From IMG/VR virus record IMGVR_UViG_3300027777_000028, positions 34,377 to 98,376 of that record: a stretch of DNA of 64,000 bases, one strand, 5' to 3'. Below the pieces are notes generated by a model that worked only from the letters and a program-made list of their open reading frames with translations, made no database searches and was not told where the DNA came from. A program made the position numbers and the translations under genes. The stretch comes from a virus. Positions 3,231 through 62,500 of the stretch are shown in pieces. The number at the start of each line of letters is the position of its first letter. The first letter of the stretch is position 1.

Positions 3231-4094
3231 ATGGCGACAAATGTTTTAGACGCGGTTTTGGCTCAATATGAAAGTTCAAAACAAAGTGGTTCTTCTTCCA
3301 CTTCAAAAATGTCACAAGAAGAAAGAATGAAAAAATATTTCGCAGCTCTTTTGAAAGAGAACGAAAAACAAGGACAAAAACGTGTTCGAATTTTACCAAC
3401 AACAGACGGATCTTCACCCTTCAAAGAAGTATGGTTTCACGAAATTTCATTGGATGGAAAATGGCAAAAATTCTATGATCCAGGAAAAAATGACAATGAA
3501 AGATCACCTTTGAATGAGGTATATGAAGAACTTATGTCAACAGGAAAAGATTCTGATAAAGAATTGGCAAAACAATATAAGGCTCGCAAATTCTATATCG
3601 TTAAAGTTATTGACCGAGATAACGAACAAGATGGAGTTAAATTTTGGAGATTCAAACATAACTACAAACAAGAAGGAATCTTAGACAAAGTTATTCCAAT
3701 TTGGAAAGCAAAAGGAGATATCACAGACCCAACAACAGGACGAGATCTAATTTTGGAACTAACCAAAGCCAAAACACCAAAAGGAGCATTTTACACAGTT
3801 ATTCAAACTGTAATGTATGATGACCCATCACCAATTTCTAAAGATGAAGATCAATTAACAGAATGGGTTTCAGATGAAATGACATGGGAAGATGTTTATT
3901 CAAAAAAACCTGTTGAATATCTTGAAGCAATCGCAAGAGGAGAAACTCCACGTTGGGATTCTGAAAAAGGTGGATATGTTTATGCAAACGATGAAACCGC
4001 AGAATTTTCTATGGGAGGATCAAAATCCAAATCAATTAACGAAGTTGAAGATCCACAAGCAAACGATCAGGTTGACGAAGAATTACCATTCTAA
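3231..4094 (+). CDS. Single-stranded DNA-binding protein, T4 gp32-like
   Basis: Covers ssDNA at the phage fork and in recombination. 287 residues, close to T4 gp32. The N-terminal basic/Ser-rich region is followed by an OB-fold-like core with conserved RVRILP and FKHNY segments. The C-terminus is acidic and ends DEELPF, the typical SSB tail that recruits partner proteins. No cysteine is present, so the zinc site of T4 gp32 is missing, as in many distant gp32 relatives. It stands alone between two terminators, which fits high-level separate expression, and is directly upstream of uvsX. Confidence 0.9.
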   Translation: MATNVLDAVLAQYESSKQSGSSSTSKMSQEERMKKYFAALLKENEKQGQKRVRILPTTDGSSPFKEVWFHEISLDGKWQKFYDPGKNDNERSPLNEVYEELMSTGKDSDKELAKQYKARKFYIVKVIDRDNEQDGVKFWRFKHNYKQEGILDKVIPIWKAKGDITDPTTGRDLILELTKAKTPKGAFYTVIQTVMYDDPSPISKDEDQLTEWVSDEMTWEDVYSKKPVEYLEAIARGETPRWDSEKGGYVYANDETAEFSMGGSKSKSINEVEDPQANDQVDEELPF

Positions 4095-4113
4095 AAAAAA
4101 CCAAAGTATTATC

Positions 4114-4147
4114 AAAACACCGATTTACAATGTCGGTGTTTTTTTTT
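4114..4147 (+). terminator. Rho-independent terminator after SSB gene
   Basis: Stem AACACCGA / TCGGTGTT with a 9-base loop, followed by a run of nine T including the stem end. Confidence 0.9.
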
Positions 4148-4170
4148 ATCATTAAATTAAATAGAAAATT

Positions 4171-5178
4171 ATGGCAATTAAGAAAAATGATTTTAGTTCA
4201 TTAAAAAAGAAATTTTCCACATCAGCAAAATATAAACCACAAAGATTTTTTGATTTGGGTCAACCTTTTTTGGATGCTGTGGGACTTCCTGGTCCTGCTA
4301 TGGGACATATAAATATGTTTTTGGGACATTCAGATACAGGAAAAACAACAGCACTTGTTAAAACTGCGGTTGACGCTCAAAAGAAAGGTATTCTTCCTGT
4401 GTTTATTATTACAGAACAAAAATGGAGTTTTGATCACGCAAAACTTATGGGTTTTGACTGTGAAGAAGTTGTCGACACCGAAACAGGTGAGTTAGAATGG
4501 GACGGGTTTTACATATTTAACAATAACTTCAATTACATCGAACAAATTACAGATTACATTAATGAATTATTAGATGCTCAAGAAAAGGGGGATTTGGATT
4601 ATTCTTTATGTATTATGTGGGATTCAGTTGGATCTGTTCCTTGTAAAATGACTTACGAAGGTAAAGGAGGAAAGCAACATAATGCTAGCGTTTTAGCAGA
4701 CAAAATCGGTATGGGAATCAATCAAAGAATTTCAGGATCACGTAAGTCTGACTCTAAATACGAAAATACTTTAATTATCGTAAATCAGCCTTGGGTGGAG
4801 TTGCCGGATAATCCTTTTGGACAACCCAAGATTAAAGCAAAGGGCGGTGAGGCAATTTGGTTAAACTCTTCATTGGTATTTTTATTTGGTAATCAAAAGG
4901 GTGCAGGAACAACAAAAATTACAGCAACAAAAGACAAAAGAACTGTAAAGTTCGCATCAAGAACAAAAGTGTCAGTTATGAAAAATCACATCAATGGACT
5001 TGGTTTTGAAGATGGGAAAATAATTGTAACACCACACGGTTTTTTACCTGGCAAGGAAGCGTCTGAAGAAAAAGCATCAATCGAACAATACAAGAAAGAT
5101 TATGCTGAATATTGGAAAGAAATAATTGGAGTCGATGGTGACTTTGATTTGAAAGCAGAAAAAGAAGAAGTAGAGTAG
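4171..5178 (+). CDS. uvsX: UvsX/RecA-like recombinase
   Basis: Strand-exchange ATPase for recombination-dependent replication and repair. 335 residues. Walker A GHSDTGKT at residues 52-59; Walker B-like LCIMWDS ending in the Asp near 151; a RecA-type loop region with INQRISGSRK and an IIVNQPW segment follows. The C-terminus is acidic. Length is slightly below T4 UvsX. It lies between the SSB and the RNase H/flap nuclease genes, a classic T4 replication-recombination neighbourhood. Confidence 0.93.
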   Translation: MAIKKNDFSSLKKKFSTSAKYKPQRFFDLGQPFLDAVGLPGPAMGHINMFLGHSDTGKTTALVKTAVDAQKKGILPVFIITEQKWSFDHAKLMGFDCEEVVDTETGELEWDGFYIFNNNFNYIEQITDYINELLDAQEKGDLDYSLCIMWDSVGSVPCKMTYEGKGGKQHNASVLADKIGMGINQRISGSRKSDSKYENTLIIVNQPWVELPDNPFGQPKIKAKGGEAIWLNSSLVFLFGNQKGAGTTKITATKDKRTVKFASRTKVSVMKNHINGLGFEDGKIIVTPHGFLPGKEASEEKASIEQYKKDYAEYWKEIIGVDGDFDLKAEKEEVE

Positions 5179-40897: not shown

Positions 40898-41677
40898 ATG
40901 ATTAAAAAGTTAATACATTTTTCTGATCTACACATCCGTCTTTTTAAAGATCACGATTTGTATAAATCAATTTTGGAAACTGCAATTGAACAATGGAGAG
41001 AGTTAGAACCTGATCGTATTGTATTTACGGGAGATCTTGTTCATTCTAAAAACCAAATGACACCTGAACTTATTGAGATGGTTAGATGGTTATTGACTGA
41101 ATGTTCTAGTATTGCAAAAACAATCATTATACTTGGAAACCATGATACAAATTTAAACAATCAAGACAGGTTAGACTCCATTACACCTATTGTAAATACC
41201 TTACACGATGAAAATATTTTATACTTCAAAGATAGAGGTGTATATGAAGATGAAAACATCAGTTGGTGTGTGTATTCACAATATCAAGGAAATATTCCAC
41301 CTGACATTACAGAATCAAAAGGTAAAAGAATTGGATTGTTTCACGGACCAATTCAAGGAATGAAAACAGACCTTGGATTTGACTTTGGTGAAGAGGCTTA
41401 TGACGTTGAAAAGTTTGATGGACTTGAAACCGTACTATGTGGAGATATTCATAAAAGACAAGAGTTTAAATTCAATACGGGAAAGGGTTATATGATTGGG
41501 TCTATAATTCAGCAGAACATCGGTGAGAGTATTGGAAAACACGGTTATGGTATTTATGATGTTGAAACAAAGGAATATAAATACGTTGATCTACCAAACC
41601 CAAAACCATTTTTGAAGTTCTCCATAAAATCATTTGAAGATATTGAAAATGGATTTGAAAAACTCCAAAATATTTAA
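40898..41677 (+). CDS. Recombination nuclease subunit, gp47/SbcD-like
   Basis: Metallophosphoesterase subunit of the gp46-gp47 (Mre11-Rad50 type) complex that resects DNA ends. 259 residues, shorter than T4 gp47 (339). Metal ligands are visible: Asp10/His12 in HFSDLHI, Asp46 in FTGDLVH, Asn81-His82 in LGNHDTN, and CGDIHKRQ. The C-terminal capping region is short. The 3' end overlaps the next gene. Its partner is encoded at 44127, separated by several genes including an HNH insertion. Confidence 0.88.
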   Translation: MIKKLIHFSDLHIRLFKDHDLYKSILETAIEQWRELEPDRIVFTGDLVHSKNQMTPELIEMVRWLLTECSSIAKTIIILGNHDTNLNNQDRLDSITPIVNTLHDENILYFKDRGVYEDENISWCVYSQYQGNIPPDITESKGKRIGLFHGPIQGMKTDLGFDFGEEAYDVEKFDGLETVLCGDIHKRQEFKFNTGKGYMIGSIIQQNIGESIGKHGYGIYDVETKEYKYVDLPNPKPFLKFSIKSFEDIENGFEKLQNI

Positions 41678-42437
41678 TAGTCAAACAATGCAGGCGGTGT
41701 CTGCATTTTGTGAATCACAGGAAATTAAAGATATTGATAATTTTATTTACCTATGTTTCAAACAGGGATTTGATATAAAGAAGTATGGTCTTTTGGGAAA
41801 AACACTTAATGAAGGTGAAAAAGACTTAAAAACGGTTGGAGTTGAAGAAAAACAATTAATAAAAGAGATAATTGTTGAAAAACTGGTGGAAGTTCCTGTT
41901 GAAGTAATCAAAGAGGTTGAAAAAATAGTTGAGGTTATTAAAGAAATACCTGTTGAGGTTATTAAAGAGGTTGAAAAAATTGTCACAAAAATAGAATACA
42001 TTAGTGACAAAACAACTGAAAATGAACTGTTGTTAAAAATACAACAGTTGGAAATCGAACTGTCAAGAAATTCCGAACAGTTGGATGAATTGTTGTCAAA
42101 AATAGAACACTTAAACGGAGAAATTTCGATTAAGTCCACAGAAATTGACAACATTAGACAAGAATTTTCAATTAAAACAAAAGAAATAAAAAATTTTTAT
42201 CAAAATGAAATGTCTAAAAAAGATAATGAGTTAGACGAACTTAGACATAATTTAGACGATCCCGTAACAAATAATAAGGTAAATATGTTACAAGAGACTT
42301 TACAAAATCTAAGAAATGAACTACAACAAAAGAACGAACAAATAAAAGAATTAGAAAAAATAAACAGAGACTTTTTGAATGGTAATCAAAATCAAGCATA
42401 CCTCCTTAAAGGATCAAATTTAAATAGAAAATTATGA
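41649..42437 (+). CDS. Coiled-coil protein with VEVP/VIKEVEK repeats
   Basis: 262 residues with ATG 41649, which overlaps gp47 by 29 nt; ATG 41688 is an alternative. After a globular N-terminus (about 60 residues) come repeats such as EVPVEVIKEVEKIVEV (about residues 75-115), then a long coiled coil (about 125-245). The same repeat occurs in the membrane protein at 50767. The C-terminus reads NRKL, identical to that of the adjacent HNH protein because of a 16-bp direct repeat. Function unknown; structural or scaffolding is possible. Confidence 0.65.
   Translation: MDLKNSKIFNSQTMQAVSAFCESQEIKDIDNFIYLCFKQGFDIKKYGLLGKTLNEGEKDLKTVGVEEKQLIKEIIVEKLVEVPVEVIKEVEKIVEVIKEIPVEVIKEVEKIVTKIEYISDKTTENELLLKIQQLEIELSRNSEQLDELLSKIEHLNGEISIKSTEIDNIRQEFSIKTKEIKNFYQNEMSKKDNELDELRHNLDDPVTNNKVNMLQETLQNLRNELQQKNEQIKELEKINRDFLNGNQNQAYLLKGSNLNRKL
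42422..42437 (+). repeat. 16-bp direct repeat, left copy flanking HNH gene
   Basis: AAATAGAAAATTATGA, identical to 43279-43294. It covers the end of the coiled-coil gene and the start of the small ORF at 42434. Confidence 0.85.
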
Positions 42438-49227: not shown

Positions 49228-50028
49228 ATGAAACAAAAAAACACAGGATCTCCAATTAATCAGGAGGAAATTTCGCACTACCTTAAAGACATTAGAAAAA
49301 TTAAGGTAATGACCGCAGAAAGAGAACGAGAGTTGGCGAAAATTATGAAGTCTGATGATTTAGAATTAACCCAAAAACAAAGAATTGAAGAAGAACTTTT
49401 AACGGGAAACCTTCGTTTTGTAATTACGGTGGCAAAACAATATCAAAATCAAGGTTTGGATTTATCAGACTTGATTGCTGAAGGAAATTTGGGTTTAATG
49501 AAGGCGATTAAAAACTTTGATTGGAACAAAGATTTGAGATTTATATCATATGCGGTTTGGTGGGTAAAACAATCTATAATCCAATCTTTAAATGATAATT
49601 CAAGAACAATTCGTCTTCCAGTCAATGTGGTTCAGGATCTTCATAAGGCAAAGAAAGAGGTTGAACAGACCGGAAAGAAACTTGAGGATAAGTTTGCTTC
49701 ATTACCCTCAATGATAGACTTAGATATGAATATCAATGAAGACGGAGATACGTTATTGGATATGATTGCAAATAAAGATGCTGAATTACCTGATGCGATA
49801 TTTGACACAAAAGACATTTTAAAAGACAAATTACTAAAACTTTTGGATGTTTTGGATGATAGGGAGAGATCAATTGTTGGTGATTACTTTGGATTAACAG
49901 GAACACCAAGAACATTGGAAGACATTGGATCTGATTTTGGATTGACTAAAGAACGTGTTCGTCAGATTAAAGAAAAGGCTCTTCGAAGACTTAGAAATGA
50001 TTCTTCAGAATTGTTTGATTATTTCTAA
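49228..50028 (+). CDS. RpoD-like RNA polymerase sigma factor
   Basis: 266 residues, built like the short primary sigma factors of Bacteroidota. Region 1.2 about residues 13-40 (ISHYLKDIRKIKVMTAERE); region 2 about 60-130 with NLRFVITVAKQYQNQGLDL, DLIAEGNLGLMKAI and the promoter-melting FISYAVWWVKQSI segment; a shortened region 3; region 4 about 200-258 with the helix-turn-helix TLEDIGSDFGLTKERVRQI. Unlike the minimal T4 gp55 it has region 4, so it can probably read both promoter elements. Likely redirects host RNA polymerase to phage promoters. Confidence 0.9.
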   Translation: MKQKNTGSPINQEEISHYLKDIRKIKVMTAERERELAKIMKSDDLELTQKQRIEEELLTGNLRFVITVAKQYQNQGLDLSDLIAEGNLGLMKAIKNFDWNKDLRFISYAVWWVKQSIIQSLNDNSRTIRLPVNVVQDLHKAKKEVEQTGKKLEDKFASLPSMIDLDMNINEDGDTLLDMIANKDAELPDAIFDTKDILKDKLLKLLDVLDDRERSIVGDYFGLTGTPRTLEDIGSDFGLTKERVRQIKEKALRRLRNDSSELFDYF

Positions 50029-50035
50029 AAAAGTT

Positions 50036-50065
50036 TTGGCAAATTAAATATTTGTATTATCTTTG
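50036..50065 (+). promoter_or_regulatory. Perfect host-type promoter for the noncoding RNA
   Basis: TTG (50036-50038), 19-nt spacer, TATCTTTG (50058-50065). Matches TTG-N19-TAnnTTTG exactly. Predicted start about 50070-50073, with no protein gene on this strand before the terminator at 50275. Confidence 0.8.
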
Positions 50066-50071
50066 TATAAC

Positions 50072-50275
50072 AAACGACGATAGATATAATCAATTAAGTT
50101 TGTCGGGTTTGAATTTTTAGAATCGGACCAAAAAAAAAAAGGGTTGAACCGAGATTACCCTAACAACTCGGCGGAATGAGACACGAGGTTCTCAAGGTGA
50201 AAATCCTCAATCTTATCTATATGGTGAGATGAAACTACACTCCCCCACTGATATCGGTGGGGGTTTTATTTTTTT
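50072..50275 (+). ncRNA. Candidate structured noncoding RNA, about 200 nt, with tandem pseudoknots
   Basis: Between its own promoter and terminator. Pairings read by eye: ACAAAC (50070-50075) with GTTTGT (50098-50103); GGTTTGA (50106-50112) with TCGGACC (50123-50129); an 11-base A run; H-type pseudoknot with GGGT (50141-50144)/ACCC (50157-50160) and CCGAG (50149-50153)/CTCGG (50167-50171); a second possible pseudoknot with TGAGA (50177-50181)/TCTCA (50190-50194) and GAGG (50185-50188)/CCTC (50205-50208); an 8-bp hairpin 50210-50217/50223-50230; then the terminator. No known RNA family was recognised. Higher GC than its surroundings. An 18-codon ORF at 50176-50232 exists but is probably chance. 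Confidence 0.72.
50241..50275 (+). terminator. Strong Rho-independent terminator of the noncoding RNA
   Basis: Stem CCCCCAC / GTGGGGG extended by TG/CG closing pairs around an ATAT loop, then TTTTATTTTTTT. The strongest, most GC-rich hairpin in the window. Confidence 0.93.
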
Positions 50276-50723
50276 ATACCCAAATAACTAATTGATCTTT
50301 ACCAACTTTAAACGGGTTATCTAATGATTCTCTAAAAACAGTATATACTTTCAATATCCAGTAAGTCCCCCCTTGAAATTCAGCACCAATCGCAAGAGCC
50401 AACTCCCATTTCAAAGATTTTACCACAAATTCAGTTCCGTCATTAATTTCTCTTTCGACTATTTTTTCTGCAATTTCTTTTTTTGCTAAATTCAATACCT
50501 CTTTAATTTCTGAATTACTAATTTCTCTTTGATTATATTCATATGAGTGTTTGCCTGTTAGTTTGAAACCTTGACCTTCTAATTCTTTTCTATTTTTTCT
50601 ATTGAACGCATGAAGACCACGATCTACTTCTAAATTAAACGATACTTCAATATTTGACACTATTTGAGCAATAGTTTTTTCGATTAATAATTGTTTTTTA
50701 ATTGATTCTCTAAGTAAAGACAT
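50274..50723 (-). CDS. Hypothetical protein with possible capsid-targeting N-terminus
   Basis: 149 residues. The N-terminus SLLRESIKKQLLIEK is an amphipathic peptide ending in a Glu-Lys step like others in this window. The remainder is alpha/beta with KKEIAEKIVEREINDGTEF and a C-terminal strand TYWILKVYTVFRESL. A TATTTAT motif precedes it on the minus strand. Probably a late, virion-carried protein; no family known. Confidence 0.6.
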   Translation of the reverse strand: MSLLRESIKKQLLIEKTIAQIVSNIEVSFNLEVDRGLHAFNRKNRKELEGQGFKLTGKHSYEYNQREISNSEIKEVLNLAKKEIAEKIVEREINDGTEFVVKSLKWELALAIGAEFQGGTYWILKVYTVFRESLDNPFKVGKDQLVIWV

Positions 50724-50766: not shown

Positions 50767-52092
50767 ATGAATAGCAAATTTTTACCTTGGTTATTATTGT
50801 TTTGTGCACTTGGACTATCGGGAACGGCAGCATATTATAGTGTATACGGACTTTCAATTATATTTTCAGGAGTTTCAATACCTGTAATCATTATGGGATC
50901 TTTTTTGGAGATCTCTAAAATATCAATTGCGACTTATCTTCACGATAGTTGGAACAAGGTATATGGTGTGTTAAAGTTGTATTTAACCATGGCTCTTGTG
51001 ACTTTATCGATTTTAACTTCAATTGGTATTTATGGACTTTTGGCCACAGGGTTTCAAAAGAGTATTGCTGGTCTTGAGATCAATAACAAAAAAATTAAAA
51101 ATGTTGAAGTAAAAAAACAAAGGTTTGAGGAAATTAAAAAAGAATTTCAAAAAGAAAAAAAGGGATTGGATAAGGACATCACAAGTTTAAGAACAGCCCT
51201 TTCAACAAGCACAACAACTCAAACTGTTGATAGAAGATCAGGACAAGTTGTTACAAAGGCGAACAATGAAAATAGGAAGGCATTTCAACAACAATTAAGT
51301 ATTGCTCAACAATCAAGGGACACTTTAAGTAAAAAAATTGATAATTTAAACGATAGTATAACAAACTTGGACATTCAAATTTTGGATATATCATCTAAAG
51401 AAATTGAATCGGGAGAATTGGGGGCGATTAAATATCTAAGTGAAATCACGGGATGGGAGGTTAAAAAAACTGCAAACTTTTTTATTTTAACTTTAATATT
51501 TGTTTTTGATCCCTTGGCAATTGCTCTTGTTATATCAACAAATCAAGCATTTAAAAAATATAGAAGAAAAGAAGAGGACGATGAAATCAAACCTGTTATT
51601 AAAGAAATTTTTGAAGAAGACGAAGTTGAGATTCCTGAAAGTTATTTTGCAAATTCTACCCCCCAAGTCACCCCTCAAGTCACCCCCCAAGTCACCCCCC
51701 AAGTTGAGACTGAAATAATTGAAAAAATTGTTGAAGTTCCTGTTGAAGTGGATAGAATTGTTGAAGTTCCTGTTGAAGTAATTAAGGAGGTTGAAAGGAT
51801 TGTTGAGATTCCTGTGGATAGAATTGTTGAGGTAGTTAGGGAAGTCCCCGTAGATAGAATGGTTGAGATAGTTAGAGAAATACCTGTTGAAGTAATTAAG
51901 GAGGTTGAAAAAATTGTTGAAGTTCCTGTTGAAGTGATTAAGGAGATTGAAAAGATTGTTGAAGTTCCTGTAAACTATTATGTTAAAGAAAATGGTGACA
52001 TTTTAGATCAAGAAGGGTATATGATGGACAAAGTCAAACTAGACAAAAAAAATGAAGAATCTAATAGGAGGGTATTATCTTATAAAAAATAA
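50767..52092 (+). CDS. Membrane protein with coiled coil and VEVP repeats
   Basis: 441 residues. Hydrophobic helices at about 5-27, 33-52 and 72-95, a coiled coil from about 108-210, another membrane helix near 240-262, then a cytoplasm-like acidic region. A 4x TPQV repeat (tandem 12-bp DNA repeat) is followed by about 80 residues of VEVPVEVIKEVEKI repeats, shared with the protein at 41649. Likely an inner-membrane protein active in infected cells; function unknown. Divergent from the preceding minus-strand gene. Confidence 0.7.
   Translation: MNSKFLPWLLLFCALGLSGTAAYYSVYGLSIIFSGVSIPVIIMGSFLEISKISIATYLHDSWNKVYGVLKLYLTMALVTLSILTSIGIYGLLATGFQKSIAGLEINNKKIKNVEVKKQRFEEIKKEFQKEKKGLDKDITSLRTALSTSTTTQTVDRRSGQVVTKANNENRKAFQQQLSIAQQSRDTLSKKIDNLNDSITNLDIQILDISSKEIESGELGAIKYLSEITGWEVKKTANFFILTLIFVFDPLAIALVISTNQAFKKYRRKEEDDEIKPVIKEIFEEDEVEIPESYFANSTPQVTPQVTPQVTPQVETEIIEKIVEVPVEVDRIVEVPVEVIKEVERIVEIPVDRIVEVVREVPVDRMVEIVREIPVEVIKEVEKIVEVPVEVIKEIEKIVEVPVNYYVKENGDILDQEGYMMDKVKLDKKNEESNRRVLSYKK
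51658..51705 (+). repeat. Tandem 12-bp repeat, four copies
   Basis: Units of ACC-CCC-CAA-GTC with one silent change (CCT) and a final GTT, encoding TPQV four times. C-rich island in AT-rich DNA. Confidence 0.9.
51715..51975 (+). repeat. Degenerate repeats encoding VEVPVEVIKEVEKI
   Basis: Repeated blocks such as GTTGAAGTTCCTGTTGAAGT occur several times; related DNA is at 41880-41990 in another gene. Confidence 0.8.
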
Positions 52093-52095
52093 AAT

Positions 52096-52689
52096 ATGAA
52101 AATAATTAAACAATTATTTGATACAAATTTTTCTAAAATTGATAATAAAAAACAAATTGTCTTGGTTCATACGTCAAGAAGTTTGTTCGACTATGTTGTA
52201 TCTTTAAAAACTAGATACAATGGAAAACCACAAAAATTACCACATTATATTGTGGGTCAAGATGGGAAAGTCATTCAACTTTTGGATGACAACGTTAATG
52301 GTAATTATTTTAATAACATCACAATAAATTACAAATCAATAGTAATTTCATTAGAAAATTTGGGTTGGTTAGAAAAAGAACCATTAAAAAATCATCACAT
52401 AAACTGGATCGGCAATATTTATAAAGAAAAAGTTGTAGATAGAAAGTGGAGGGATTATTTTTTTTGGCATCCGTATACGGAGATTCAGTTGGAAAATACT
52501 GCAAAACTTTGTAATAAGTTGTCAAAAAAACATAACATAAATTCAAAGTTTATCGGACATAATACCAAAGTAAAAGGATCGGAAACCTTTTTGGGTATTA
52601 TAACAAGATCCAACTTTGATGAATATGCCACAGACATAAGTCCGGCATTTGATTTTGAAAGATTTAATAACTTATTAAAAAATGAATAA
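52096..52689 (+). CDS. Endolysin, N-acetylmuramoyl-L-alanine amidase (AmpD/amidase_2 type)
   Basis: Cleaves the amide bond between muramic acid and the peptide in peptidoglycan. 197 residues. Zinc ligands expected at His25 (VLVHTSRS), His155 (FIGHNT) and Asp180 (TDISPAFDFERF, matching the DPGPxFD end motif of AmpD). LPHYIVGQDGKVIQLLDD and VISLENLGW are typical of the fold. No signal peptide, so release needs a holin or other membrane protein; spanin-like genes lie just downstream. Confidence 0.85.
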   Translation: MKIIKQLFDTNFSKIDNKKQIVLVHTSRSLFDYVVSLKTRYNGKPQKLPHYIVGQDGKVIQLLDDNVNGNYFNNITINYKSIVISLENLGWLEKEPLKNHHINWIGNIYKEKVVDRKWRDYFFWHPYTEIQLENTAKLCNKLSKKHNINSKFIGHNTKVKGSETFLGIITRSNFDEYATDISPAFDFERFNNLLKNE

Positions 52690-53272
52690 TTACGACGAAA
52701 TAAAAAAATTGATTGAAGCCTCAAGAAAGGCTCTTAATGGTAAGATCAATGAAAGTTCCAAGACTGAAATTAGAAAACAATATGGTTTATTGTTAGAACA
52801 AAATGAAGATGAGGTTGATTTGAACATTGACATTAAAAAAGAAGAGGGTAAAAATTCAGAACCAAAAGACTCTGATGATATTGGAACACCAAGAGACAAA
52901 CAAAAAGCGTTTAGAGTTCAAGGAAACATCATCGTATTACACGGAAAAACAAAATCTGATACACAATTAACCACAGATGAAAAAAACGCGTTTGTCGAAA
53001 GCGTTGACGAGTTTAGAAATCAAGTTGCTGAGTTAGTTGATTTTGGAAAATTAAATGTTTTTCCTGAAAATGTTGAATGGAGTGGAAAAATATTGGAACT
53101 AGATTTGGAGTTCTTCTACACAATAAATGAACCAAATGGGATTTATGTGAACGGACAAATGGTTAAAATTGATCAACAATATTTAGAAATGATTGGGAAA
53201 TTACAATCTTATTATGAGAAATTTAAAGCAAAATGGGGTAAAATAGTCTCATCAAGACAAGAAGACGTATGA
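52682..53272 (+). CDS. Hypothetical acidic protein, possibly virion-associated
   Basis: 196 residues; overlaps the endolysin by 8 nt. N-terminal helix (YDEIKKLIEASRKALNGKINESS) resembles the targeting-peptide group. An acidic linker is followed by an alpha/beta C-terminal domain with FRVQGNIIVLHGKTKSD and a final helix. No family recognised. Confidence 0.6.
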   Translation: MNNYDEIKKLIEASRKALNGKINESSKTEIRKQYGLLLEQNEDEVDLNIDIKKEEGKNSEPKDSDDIGTPRDKQKAFRVQGNIIVLHGKTKSDTQLTTDEKNAFVESVDEFRNQVAELVDFGKLNVFPENVEWSGKILELDLEFFYTINEPNGIYVNGQMVKIDQQYLEMIGKLQSYYEKFKAKWGKIVSSRQEDV

Positions 53273-55070: not shown

Positions 55071-56642
55071 ATGAATAAAGAAGAATATATTGTATCAAGA
55101 TTTAAAAAAATCTTAAGAGAAAACATCAACGAAAAAAGTGAATCAATTTTGAACCAATTGAATTACAATAAAGAAGTACCTTTTAATCCTGCTGGAGAGT
55201 CTTTTGATTATGTCCAAGAAGGAGAAACTTGTGAATGTGGTGGAGAAATGTACGAAGGTGAATGTATGGAGTGTGGAAAAGGTTATGGAGAAGTTATGGA
55301 ACGTAAGAACAAATCTAAAGTTTCTATGGAAGATATTGAAGATCTTTTGGGTGATATCAAGGATGATATGGGAAAAGATGATGATGAGTTTGAATTTGAA
55401 TTGGAAGTTGATGAATCTGAATGTATGGAATGTGGTTCTTCATATGAAATGAAAGAAAAATTATACGGAAAACAAAACAAACTTGATAAAAATAAAAATG
55501 GAAAATTGGATTCTGAAGATTTCGAAATGTTAAGAAAACAACAAAATGAAGAAGAACAACTTTATGAAATTGAGTTTGAAAAAGAAGAAACTTATGAAGG
55601 TAATGCTTTTACAGGAGCCTTAGCAAGGGCAAAAAAACAAGGAGACGATTCTTTTGAAGTTGACGGAAAAAAATATGAGGTCACGGAAAAATGGGAAGGA
55701 GATGTTGAAGTGGAACACACAGGAGAATATTCTGACATGTCAATTGAAGAGTTGAACGCGGCGATTAAAAAACAAAAGGATAAAAACGATAGAACTAAAG
55801 AATCGGGAAAAAAAGTGCCTCATGCGGATCGTACAAAAATGAGTCAACTTTATTTTGCTAAAAGAGCAAAACAAGGGTGGAAAGGAAAAGGTAAAGCAAA
55901 AGTTAAAGAATCAATTTTATATACCGAATCTGACTTGATCGATATTATTGAAAAATTAGTTAAAGAAGAAACAAAATTTAAAGTTAAAGAACCAAAAGGT
56001 TACAGAGAATACGAAAGAGCACATAAAGCAGACAAAAAAGAAAATGACGATTATTTAAAAAGTGTTGCTAAAAAGATGACTGATTATTTGAAAGGAGCTT
56101 CTGATTCTGGATCAAAATATGAAATGAAAGAAACTCAAAAATTCCCAACTGAAAATGGGGGAATGAAAAAAGGAAATAGAAAAAAATATACACCATCAGA
56201 TGCTGTTGACGAATATATTGAGGCATTTTCTTATCCTGGACAAACTAACTTGGTTTACGATGAAATTAAACCTAATGATAAGAACATTGAAAAACATCTA
56301 AAAGGTCATAGAACAACAGGAAACGCTCAAGTTGATGATGATGGAAACGCATTGGGTAACGTAGTTCCAAGTGATGTTGGTGAGAAATTCTTCAAAAACT
56401 TTAAAGACAATCTTTATGGTCAAGAACAAATGAGTGCTTCATATAAGAGACAACCACAACCTGTTGATCAGGCTGGTGAACATACAGAAAGAGGTTCATT
56501 AAAGTCAAAAAAAGGTAAAAAAACATCTCAATCAATATTGAATAAAGTTGATGAATCTACAGACCTTAAAAAAGTAGAAAAACTTAACGAAGAATTTGAT
56601 AGAATCAATAATTTAATGTCTTATAATAGAAAGACTCAATAA
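55071..56642 (+). CDS. Virion/internal protein with zinc ribbons, EF-hand and targeting-type peptides
   Basis: 523 residues. N-terminal peptide EEYIVSRFKKILRENINEK (targeting-like). Cys pairs CECGGEMYEGECMECGKG near 44-61 and ECMECGSS near 107 could bind zinc. DKNKNGKLDSEDFEML near 130-145 is a canonical EF-hand loop. A second targeting-like helix (YTESDLIDIIEKLVKEE) lies near 285-300, suggesting processing into two parts. C-terminus ends FDRINNLMSYNRKTQ. Highly charged throughout. Likely packaged in the head and cleaved by the prohead protease; inferred. Confidence 0.6.
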   Translation: MNKEEYIVSRFKKILRENINEKSESILNQLNYNKEVPFNPAGESFDYVQEGETCECGGEMYEGECMECGKGYGEVMERKNKSKVSMEDIEDLLGDIKDDMGKDDDEFEFELEVDESECMECGSSYEMKEKLYGKQNKLDKNKNGKLDSEDFEMLRKQQNEEEQLYEIEFEKEETYEGNAFTGALARAKKQGDDSFEVDGKKYEVTEKWEGDVEVEHTGEYSDMSIEELNAAIKKQKDKNDRTKESGKKVPHADRTKMSQLYFAKRAKQGWKGKGKAKVKESILYTESDLIDIIEKLVKEETKFKVKEPKGYREYERAHKADKKENDDYLKSVAKKMTDYLKGASDSGSKYEMKETQKFPTENGGMKKGNRKKYTPSDAVDEYIEAFSYPGQTNLVYDEIKPNDKNIEKHLKGHRTTGNAQVDDDGNALGNVVPSDVGEKFFKNFKDNLYGQEQMSASYKRQPQPVDQAGEHTERGSLKSKKGKKTSQSILNKVDESTDLKKVEKLNEEFDRINNLMSYNRKTQ

Positions 56643-61117: not shown

Positions 61118-62500
61118 ATGTCGTTAAGATTTACAAACATTTTAAGAGATTTAATCGTTGAAAGTTCAAGATTTCAAGTATTATTCGATAAGTTCGTTAA
61201 ACCAAAAGAAAAAGGTCAAAGAGGTATAATGCCATTTGAAACTTTATTTGCTCTTATTGCTGCTGACCCAACCACAAAAATTCCTGAAGGGATGAATGTT
61301 GATACTGCTAAACCTGAACAAATGGAGAAGGTTAAAATCGGAAAATATGCTCAGTGGTTATTAAAAAACTTTGTTACACCTAAATTGGAGCCAAACCATC
61401 CTTTGATGGTATTAGATCCACAATCAGGTCAGTATAAATCGGCACTTAGAGAATTCCAAAATTTGTTTATGGAAGATTTATATAAGGTGACAACAAACCT
61501 TCAAAAGTTTGAAAGATTCAAAAATAGATTACCTCAAGAGTTTAGAGATATTAATAAACTAACTCCTGAGACTTTATATGATCAAGTTAAAGATTTCAGT
61601 TTAGAAAAAACTAAAGCGACTGCGGCTGAGAAAAAAGAAGCTTCTCAGACATATGCTCACCCTGGTGCTGAAATCGTTTATAGAGGTCAAGATTGGACGG
61701 TAGCTAAAATATCTGATAAAGGACCATTAGGTAAGGAAGCGGCTTGTTTCTACGGTGGATCACATAATGAGGCAAGAAGAGGTGAAACTAATTGGTGTAC
61801 GTCTTCACCTGGACTTCAGTGGTTTGATAGGTATATTGGTAAAGGACCTTTATATGTTGTAATTCCAAACACACCATCATCATTCAAAACATATGGTAAA
61901 GAAACTGGTGAAGTTTCGGGACTTCCAGCAAATCGTTATCAATTCCATTTCCCTGATAATCAATTTATGGATGCTGATGACAGACAAATTAATTTAATTG
62001 AATTCTTAAATACAAATGAGGAAGGATTGAAACAATTCTTTAAACCTGAGTTTATGAAGTCATTGGCAGGAGATAAAGGTGAAAAAGTTGTTATTGATTA
62101 TCCAAGTGATTCAGCATCTAAGTTTATCGCACTTTACGGATTTGATGAGTTCTTTGCAACTTTACCGGCAACTCTTAAACGACTTACATTTAAAAATACA
62201 TCAAGAGATAAAATATCTTTAAATATTCCTAACGACATTGGAAGATTCAAACAACTAAACGCAATTAATTTCGTTGGATGTGTTGCATCTATACCTGAGG
62301 CGATCTGTAGTTTAGAAAACCTACAATATTTATCGTTAGTTAATAACCCAGATTTACAAATGTTACCTGATTGTATTGGAAATATGCCAAACCTAATGGT
62401 TATTAACTTGGGTGGATCTGATGCTAAAAGAGTATTACCACAATCGGTATTCAACAGGGCTGAGGAAGACGAAGACTTCAACTTATTTACACACGGATAA
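61118..62500 (+). CDS. Possible packaged effector: targeting peptide, NWCTS domain, leucine-rich repeats
   Basis: 460 residues. N-terminal LRFTNILRDLIVESSRF resembles a capsid-targeting peptide. A central domain (about 180-290) carries ARRGETNWCTSSPG, then WFDRYIGKGPLYVVIP, a pattern seen in uncharacterised proteins of large phages. The C-terminal about 110 residues are leucine-rich repeats (LPATLKRLTF, IPNDIGRFKQLNAINF, IPEAICSLENLQYLSL, LPDCIGNMPNLMVINL). Leucine-rich repeats are typical of protein-binding effectors. Ejection into the host to bind a target is inferred. Confidence 0.7.
   Translation: MSLRFTNILRDLIVESSRFQVLFDKFVKPKEKGQRGIMPFETLFALIAADPTTKIPEGMNVDTAKPEQMEKVKIGKYAQWLLKNFVTPKLEPNHPLMVLDPQSGQYKSALREFQNLFMEDLYKVTTNLQKFERFKNRLPQEFRDINKLTPETLYDQVKDFSLEKTKATAAEKKEASQTYAHPGAEIVYRGQDWTVAKISDKGPLGKEAACFYGGSHNEARRGETNWCTSSPGLQWFDRYIGKGPLYVVIPNTPSSFKTYGKETGEVSGLPANRYQFHFPDNQFMDADDRQINLIEFLNTNEEGLKQFFKPEFMKSLAGDKGEKVVIDYPSDSASKFIALYGFDEFFATLPATLKRLTFKNTSRDKISLNIPNDIGRFKQLNAINFVGCVASIPEAICSLENLQYLSLVNNPDLQMLPDCIGNMPNLMVINLGGSDAKRVLPQSVFNRAEEDEDFNLFTHG

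Follow-up and report, generated by a model that had tools for sequence, protein, structure and literature searches.

What lies between a phage sigma-factor gene and its convergent neighbor, in an interval that had been predicted to hold one compact unit made of a promoter, an RNA with two possible pseudoknots and a terminator? The window, i.e. the whole analysed stretch of 64,000 nt, is part of a 98-kb IMG/VR phage contig. Its source is a freshwater phage of Bacteroidota; the baseplate protein is approximately 25–28% identical to its nearest matches, which come from Flavobacterium phage immuto and an uncultured jumbo phage. The upstream gene (49228–50028, plus strand) encodes a phage sigma-70-type factor with sigma-70 regions 2 and 4 (PF04542 and PF04545; phrog_351). 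The gene on the other side, cl2 (50274–50723, minus strand), has no match in Pfam, in PHROG or by PDB fold, and its predicted structure, which is of moderate quality, gave no significant PDB match. The original prediction was right in that positions 50070–50263 contain no credible protein gene. An 18-codon open reading frame with an ATG at 50176 was considered and is unlikely to be a gene, judging by its relatives, since it is interrupted in several of them (seven codons or fewer, or no start codon, in 7 of 46) and its amino acids mostly change.

We retrieved 80 relatives of the sigma gene for comparison. The conserved unit, further referred to as RNA A, occupies positions 50141–50263 of the window on the plus strand, is about 125 nt long and consists of an H-type pseudoknot, three hairpins and a terminator. 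Its signature, GGGTTGAACCGAGATTACCC..ACAACTCGGC, was found in about half of the 80 sigma relatives, mostly directly past the sigma stop codon. A scan with the pseudoknot motif yielded 90 viral contigs with 56 distinct forms of RNA A. A second scan, with a motif covering hairpins P4 and P5 and thus blind to the pseudoknot, yielded 62 contigs. All of these contain the exact pseudoknot motif with the exception of three contigs and one more that was retrieved in part only; in the three, the pseudoknot is kept and the differences are confined to its loops. The P3 motif was also used to look for members with an altered pseudoknot, and the 11 extra matches turned out to be unrelated DNA. Nineteen of 24 large contigs carry one strong copy of RNA A and the other five carry none, so that no tandem copies were seen in this set, each phage contig having one strong match at most.

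The fold of the region is more stable than expected (z = −3.2), and none of 200 shuffled sequences was equally stable. We aligned 46 distinct RNA A sequences (alignment A1) and, separately, a more diverse set of 31 sequences. The two pseudoknot stems S1 and S2, hairpins P3, P4 and P5 and the terminator are formed in 97.2% of cells of A1, compared to 91.6% in shuffles and 39–53% when the partners are slid. Changes on both sides of a pair were observed at 15 pairs in 113 cells; the shuffles gave 37.5 cells, none of 500 reached the observed value, and the slid controls gave 2–26 cells. The picture for the diverse set is the same. Hence the compensatory substitutions that were to be sought in homologues beside the sigma gene do exist, and together with the fold and the occurrence in about 90 contigs they establish a structured RNA beyond chance.

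The covariation that supports the structure is located in P3, P4, P5 and the terminator. Hairpin P3 (50177–50194; TGAG..CTCA with the loop ACGAN or CTGAN) changes on both sides at pairs 39–52 (19 of 46 sequences) and 40–51 (16 of 46), and its closing pair turns from C-G into G-C in 2 of the 31 diverse sequences. Its members fall into two classes, TGAGACACGAGGTTCTCA and GGTGCCTGAAGTCACC, both of which retain the stem and the loop size. Hairpin P4 (50195–50207) has an outer pair that occurs as A-U, G-U or G-C, with nine double changes, and a 7-nt loop, UGAAAAU in the window and U-G-M-R-A-N-N in general (the third position being A or C and the fourth, A or G). The U, the G and the fifth-position A are invariant in A1; we take this loop to resemble a T-loop. 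In the 8-bp hairpin P5 (50210–50230), four pairs change on both sides, two of them in 19 and 21 sequences, respectively. It is followed by a single-stranded linker, GAAACTACACT (50231–50241), with an invariant GAAA and an ACAC conserved in at least 90% of A1. The intrinsic terminator (50242–50271; 9-bp stem at 50242–50263 and a T tract) forms the 3' end of RNA A, and seven of its nine pairs show double changes. Thus, the TGAGA/TCTCA hairpin, the 8-bp hairpin and the GC-rich terminator of the original prediction are all present.

The pseudoknot is a different matter. Stem S1 pairs GGGT (50141–50144) with ACCC (50157–50160), and stem S2, interleaved with it, pairs CCGAG (50149–50153) with CTCGG (50167–50171). 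The arrangement is present as predicted, and only 30 of 20,000 dinucleotide shuffles (approximately 0.15%) contain one as good. Both stems are invariant in all 46 and all 31 aligned sequences; one change is seen in the single bacterial copy (L239, see below), where S2 reads CCGGG/CTCGG and pairing is kept via G-U. Since the stems do not vary, covariation neither proves nor disproves the pseudoknot, and such ultraconserved sequence could also be a site for protein binding or base pairing that does not adopt this fold. RNAalifold offered an alternative helix between positions 2–5 and 94–97, in which GGTT (50142–50145) pairs with an AACT that is conserved in the 3' linker. Almost every sequence of A1 can form this helix, in part with G-U pairs, but none of its pairs changes on both sides, and in L033, L034 and L043 the helix is disrupted and the pseudoknot is retained. 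The second pseudoknot that had been proposed, with GAGG/CCTC interleaved with the P3 stem, is not conserved: of its four pairs, one is possible in just 11 of 46 sequences, and there is no covariation.

The 5' part of the predicted unit has a separate origin. A Bacteroidota-type promoter, TTG-N19-TATCTTTG, is present upstream of RNA A at 50036–50065 on the plus strand (TTG at 50036–50038, TATCTTTG at 50058–50065), and it drives the window copy. The same promoter precedes a second RNA, further referred to as RNA C, which in its full form is about 130 nt long and has its own promoter and terminator (L003, positions 4045–4200; L030, positions 3997–4170; L085, L088, L097, L100, L122 and L157). The core of RNA C is strongly conserved (GTCGGGAAGCTTACTCCTGGGGTCGTAAGTCGTCG..CACCGCGGTTAGTGTG). 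In the window, positions 50070–50135 are an internally deleted copy of it: alignment A6 shows that about 50 central nucleotides and the RNA C terminator are missing, and a 5' hairpin (ACAAAC/GTTTGT, 50070–50075 and 50098–50103) and a 3' hairpin (GGTTTGA/TCGGACC, 50106–50112 and 50123–50129) are left. The shortened form was found only in the window and in L019. In its origin the promoter at 50036–50065 is part of RNA C, which represents another family of phage RNAs. Because the copies in the window and L019 have lost the middle and the terminator, the RNA C promoter now drives RNA A, and this upstream fusion explains why the promoter was taken for a dedicated one. Its sequence was thus recognized correctly, whereas its dedication to RNA A does not hold: it comes from RNA C, and in the majority of the sigma-linked relatives no promoter is present. 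Likewise, the promoter and the first approximately 70 nt, treated earlier as one element with RNA A, are in fact the promoter and the ends of the deleted RNA C.

In most sigma-linked relatives, RNA A lies 2–17 nt past the sigma stop codon and has no promoter. Elsewhere it may have one of its own. Of 59 distinct upstream sequences, 18 have the motif TAnnTTTG at −40..−15, compared to 1.5 expected; these Bacteroidota-type promoters are located 19–31 nt upstream of RNA A (−19 to −31) and make it an independent transcription unit there. With a putative promoter and a terminator of its own in these 18 distinct sequences, RNA A has the organization of a free-standing phage small RNA. The host-type promoters suggest that it is expressed before late transcription. 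RNA A stays in one genomic region, and its setting varies mainly on the 5' side. RNA A is found directly 3' of the sigma gene in 31 loci and elsewhere behind unrelated genes (cl3, cl4, cl5 and others), and the gene 3' of it is nearly always cl0, which encodes a membrane protein, or the convergent cl2. As the next gene, cl0 is on the same strand in about 35 loci, and cl2 is convergent in about 30, including the window. Therefore RNA A does not depend on a particular mRNA.

The proteins and intergenic stretches around this region have further features. The cl0 protein (51660–51980 in the window) contains long EVPVEVIKEVEKIVEVPV-type repeats, and the same repeats are found in the open reading frame at 41634–42437. 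A similar amphipathic N-terminal stretch, LRESIKKQLLIE-like, occurs in the proteins encoded at 50274–50723 (minus strand), 52682–53272, 55071–56642 and 61118–62500; we take these stretches to be reminiscent of the capsid-targeting leaders of T4 internal proteins. Two more apparently structured non-coding stretches, at L075:3830–4050 and in L045, are located behind sigma genes and are unlike RNA A, RNA B (described below) and RNA C.

RNA A is a new RNA family, although the general kind, phage-encoded structured small RNAs, is known. The Rfam search that had been proposed as a check agrees with the earlier statement that no known family was recognized: at the gathering cut-off of Rfam 15 the window has no match, and permissive thresholds add nothing credible. 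The best sub-threshold match, L10_leader, scores 25.5 bits compared to 44 needed, and its paired part falls on the terminator. A search for tRNA and tmRNA gave none, blastn against isolated phages (INPHARED, E-value 10) gave just 19–20-nt chance matches, and no description of RNA A was found in the openly accessible literature. Bacteriophage T4 encodes two stable small RNAs, also named C and D, which are not known to have an assigned function. They are short, structured and non-coding like RNA A, and RNA A differs from them in having a pseudoknot, in adjoining a sigma gene rather than a tRNA cluster and in having no match in isolated phages. Compact pseudoknots with frozen sequence are shared with the H-type pseudoknot riboswitches SAM-II and preQ1; in contrast to these, RNA A in about half of its loci is not upstream of a same-strand gene and has no Rfam match. 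GOLLD, ROOL and other ornate RNAs, some of them from phages, are likewise structured and noncoding and were discovered through comparative analysis, but they are hundreds of nucleotides long and oligomeric (PMC12286853), whereas RNA A is about 125 nt long and matches no Rfam model.

We also scanned 84,980 GTDB genomes with two motifs. These scans detected a single cellular copy of RNA A, L239:392–492, which is part of a contig from a Bacteroidetes MAG. Its covariance-model score is 102.6 bits, and its pseudoknot is retained, one pair of S2 being G-U. It lies between a 57-aa open reading frame and a DUF7149/DUF7814 gene, which resembles part of a restriction-modification enzyme; folD and bshA are nearby. 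This copy may be chromosomal; alternatively, an error of binning or assembly could account for it. Two weak bacterial matches to the covariance model (L274 and L275), obtained from 299 genomes of the same order including that of L239, are inside protein genes and were dismissed as chance.

Taken together, the invariant 5' pseudoknot, the covarying hairpins, the terminator, the single copy, the optional promoter and the lack of a constant upstream cis neighbor point to a phage-encoded structured noncoding RNA of a new family, probably acting in trans. Where RNA A has its own promoter, transcription would start approximately 10–20 nt before the pseudoknot. The free RNA would be about 125–135 nt long, with its 5' end immediately upstream of GGGTTGAACC and its 3' end in the T tract of the terminator. 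In the window, RNA A would come either from the RNA C promoter, as the last portion of a transcript of approximately 195 nt, or from the sigma mRNA, whose 3' end it would form. The pseudoknot and the T-loop-like P4 may make up a rigid surface for the binding of one specific partner, with proteins of the host or the phage and the ribosome as candidates. Such a surface would explain why the sequence is frozen there, while in P3, P5 and the terminator only pairing is needed. The earlier suggestion of a decoy directed at host polymerase, ribosomes or defence is a possibility, and sequence singles out none of the three as the target.

The main rival to the trans-acting reading arises because the sigma-linked copies have no promoter. 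RNA A could be a cis-acting 3' UTR module, with the pseudoknot and the terminator forming a cap that keeps exonucleases off the mRNA of the sigma gene or another upstream gene, or that links folding to the termination of translation. The position a few nucleotides past the stop in most sigma loci, and directly past cl4 stops, again promoterless, agrees with this, as does the terminator at the end of RNA A. Yet the upstream gene varies, in 18 distinct loci the promoter is at most 31 nt away and nothing is capped there, and the conservation of the pseudoknot, loop and linker sequences exceeds the needs of a cap, so we regard such a role as unlikely. Ordinary terminators are common, and helices are frequent when single A+T-rich phage genomes are folded; that RNA A is nothing more than a terminator, structured by chance and without a separate function, is refuted by the compensatory changes and by an invariant 20-nt motif in about 90 contigs, and we give it practically no credence.

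A structured RNA immediately followed by a terminator, with cl0 next in about 35 loci, might act as a leader, similar to a riboswitch or an attenuator, by which read-through into cl0 is controlled. This is improbable: the convergent orientation of cl2 excludes a cis-leader role in about 30 loci, the window among them, and there is no conserved alternative antiterminator pairing. We hold it to be just as improbable that RNA A is a decoy directed at an RNA-binding toxin of the host defence, for example a type III toxin with an RNA pseudoknot antitoxin (ToxIN/AbiQ type). In the order and sizes of its stems and loops (4–5-bp stems, a short L1 and a 6-nt L3), the pseudoknot of RNA A may resemble those of the antitoxin RNAs ToxI and antiQ, and the sole cellular copy adjoins the DUF7149/DUF7814 gene, a weak hint from a single neighbor in one MAG. 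However, RNA A is a single copy rather than a tandem repeat, has three further hairpins and matches no Rfam family. No ToxN-type toxin was found beside it by Pfam or PADLOC; its phage neighbors are sigma, cl0 and cl2–cl7.

RNA A is not the only RNA of this region. RNA B, observed in 33 viral contigs by its tandem pattern (L221, L231, L233, L244, L248, L240–L272; L219–L222), consists of two to four tandem hairpins with wholly different stems and a constant loop of approximately 18 nt, GG.AACGATT[T/C/A]AGATACAA, often with a TAnnTTTG promoter in front. In loci that lack RNA A, related forms are found next to sigma or cl2. RNA B looks like a protein-binding sponge or an antiterminator; neither the tested members of RNA B nor RNA C have an Rfam match. 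The occurrence of RNA A, the unrelated RNA B and RNA C between sigma and cl0 of related phages could mark an "RNA island", where several RNAs aimed at the host are kept and swapped, their role early in infection being to remodel transcription or translation or to block defences; we offer this as a tentative and rather doubtful idea.

Few conserved dedicated noncoding RNAs that lack a catalogued family are known in lytic phages. RNA A is common in freshwater phages of Bacteroidota, and two further RNA families occupy the same region. Its frozen pseudoknot would point to one specific partner, and RNA A provides a compact and testable system for studying how such phages use RNA, rather than protein, to act on the host.
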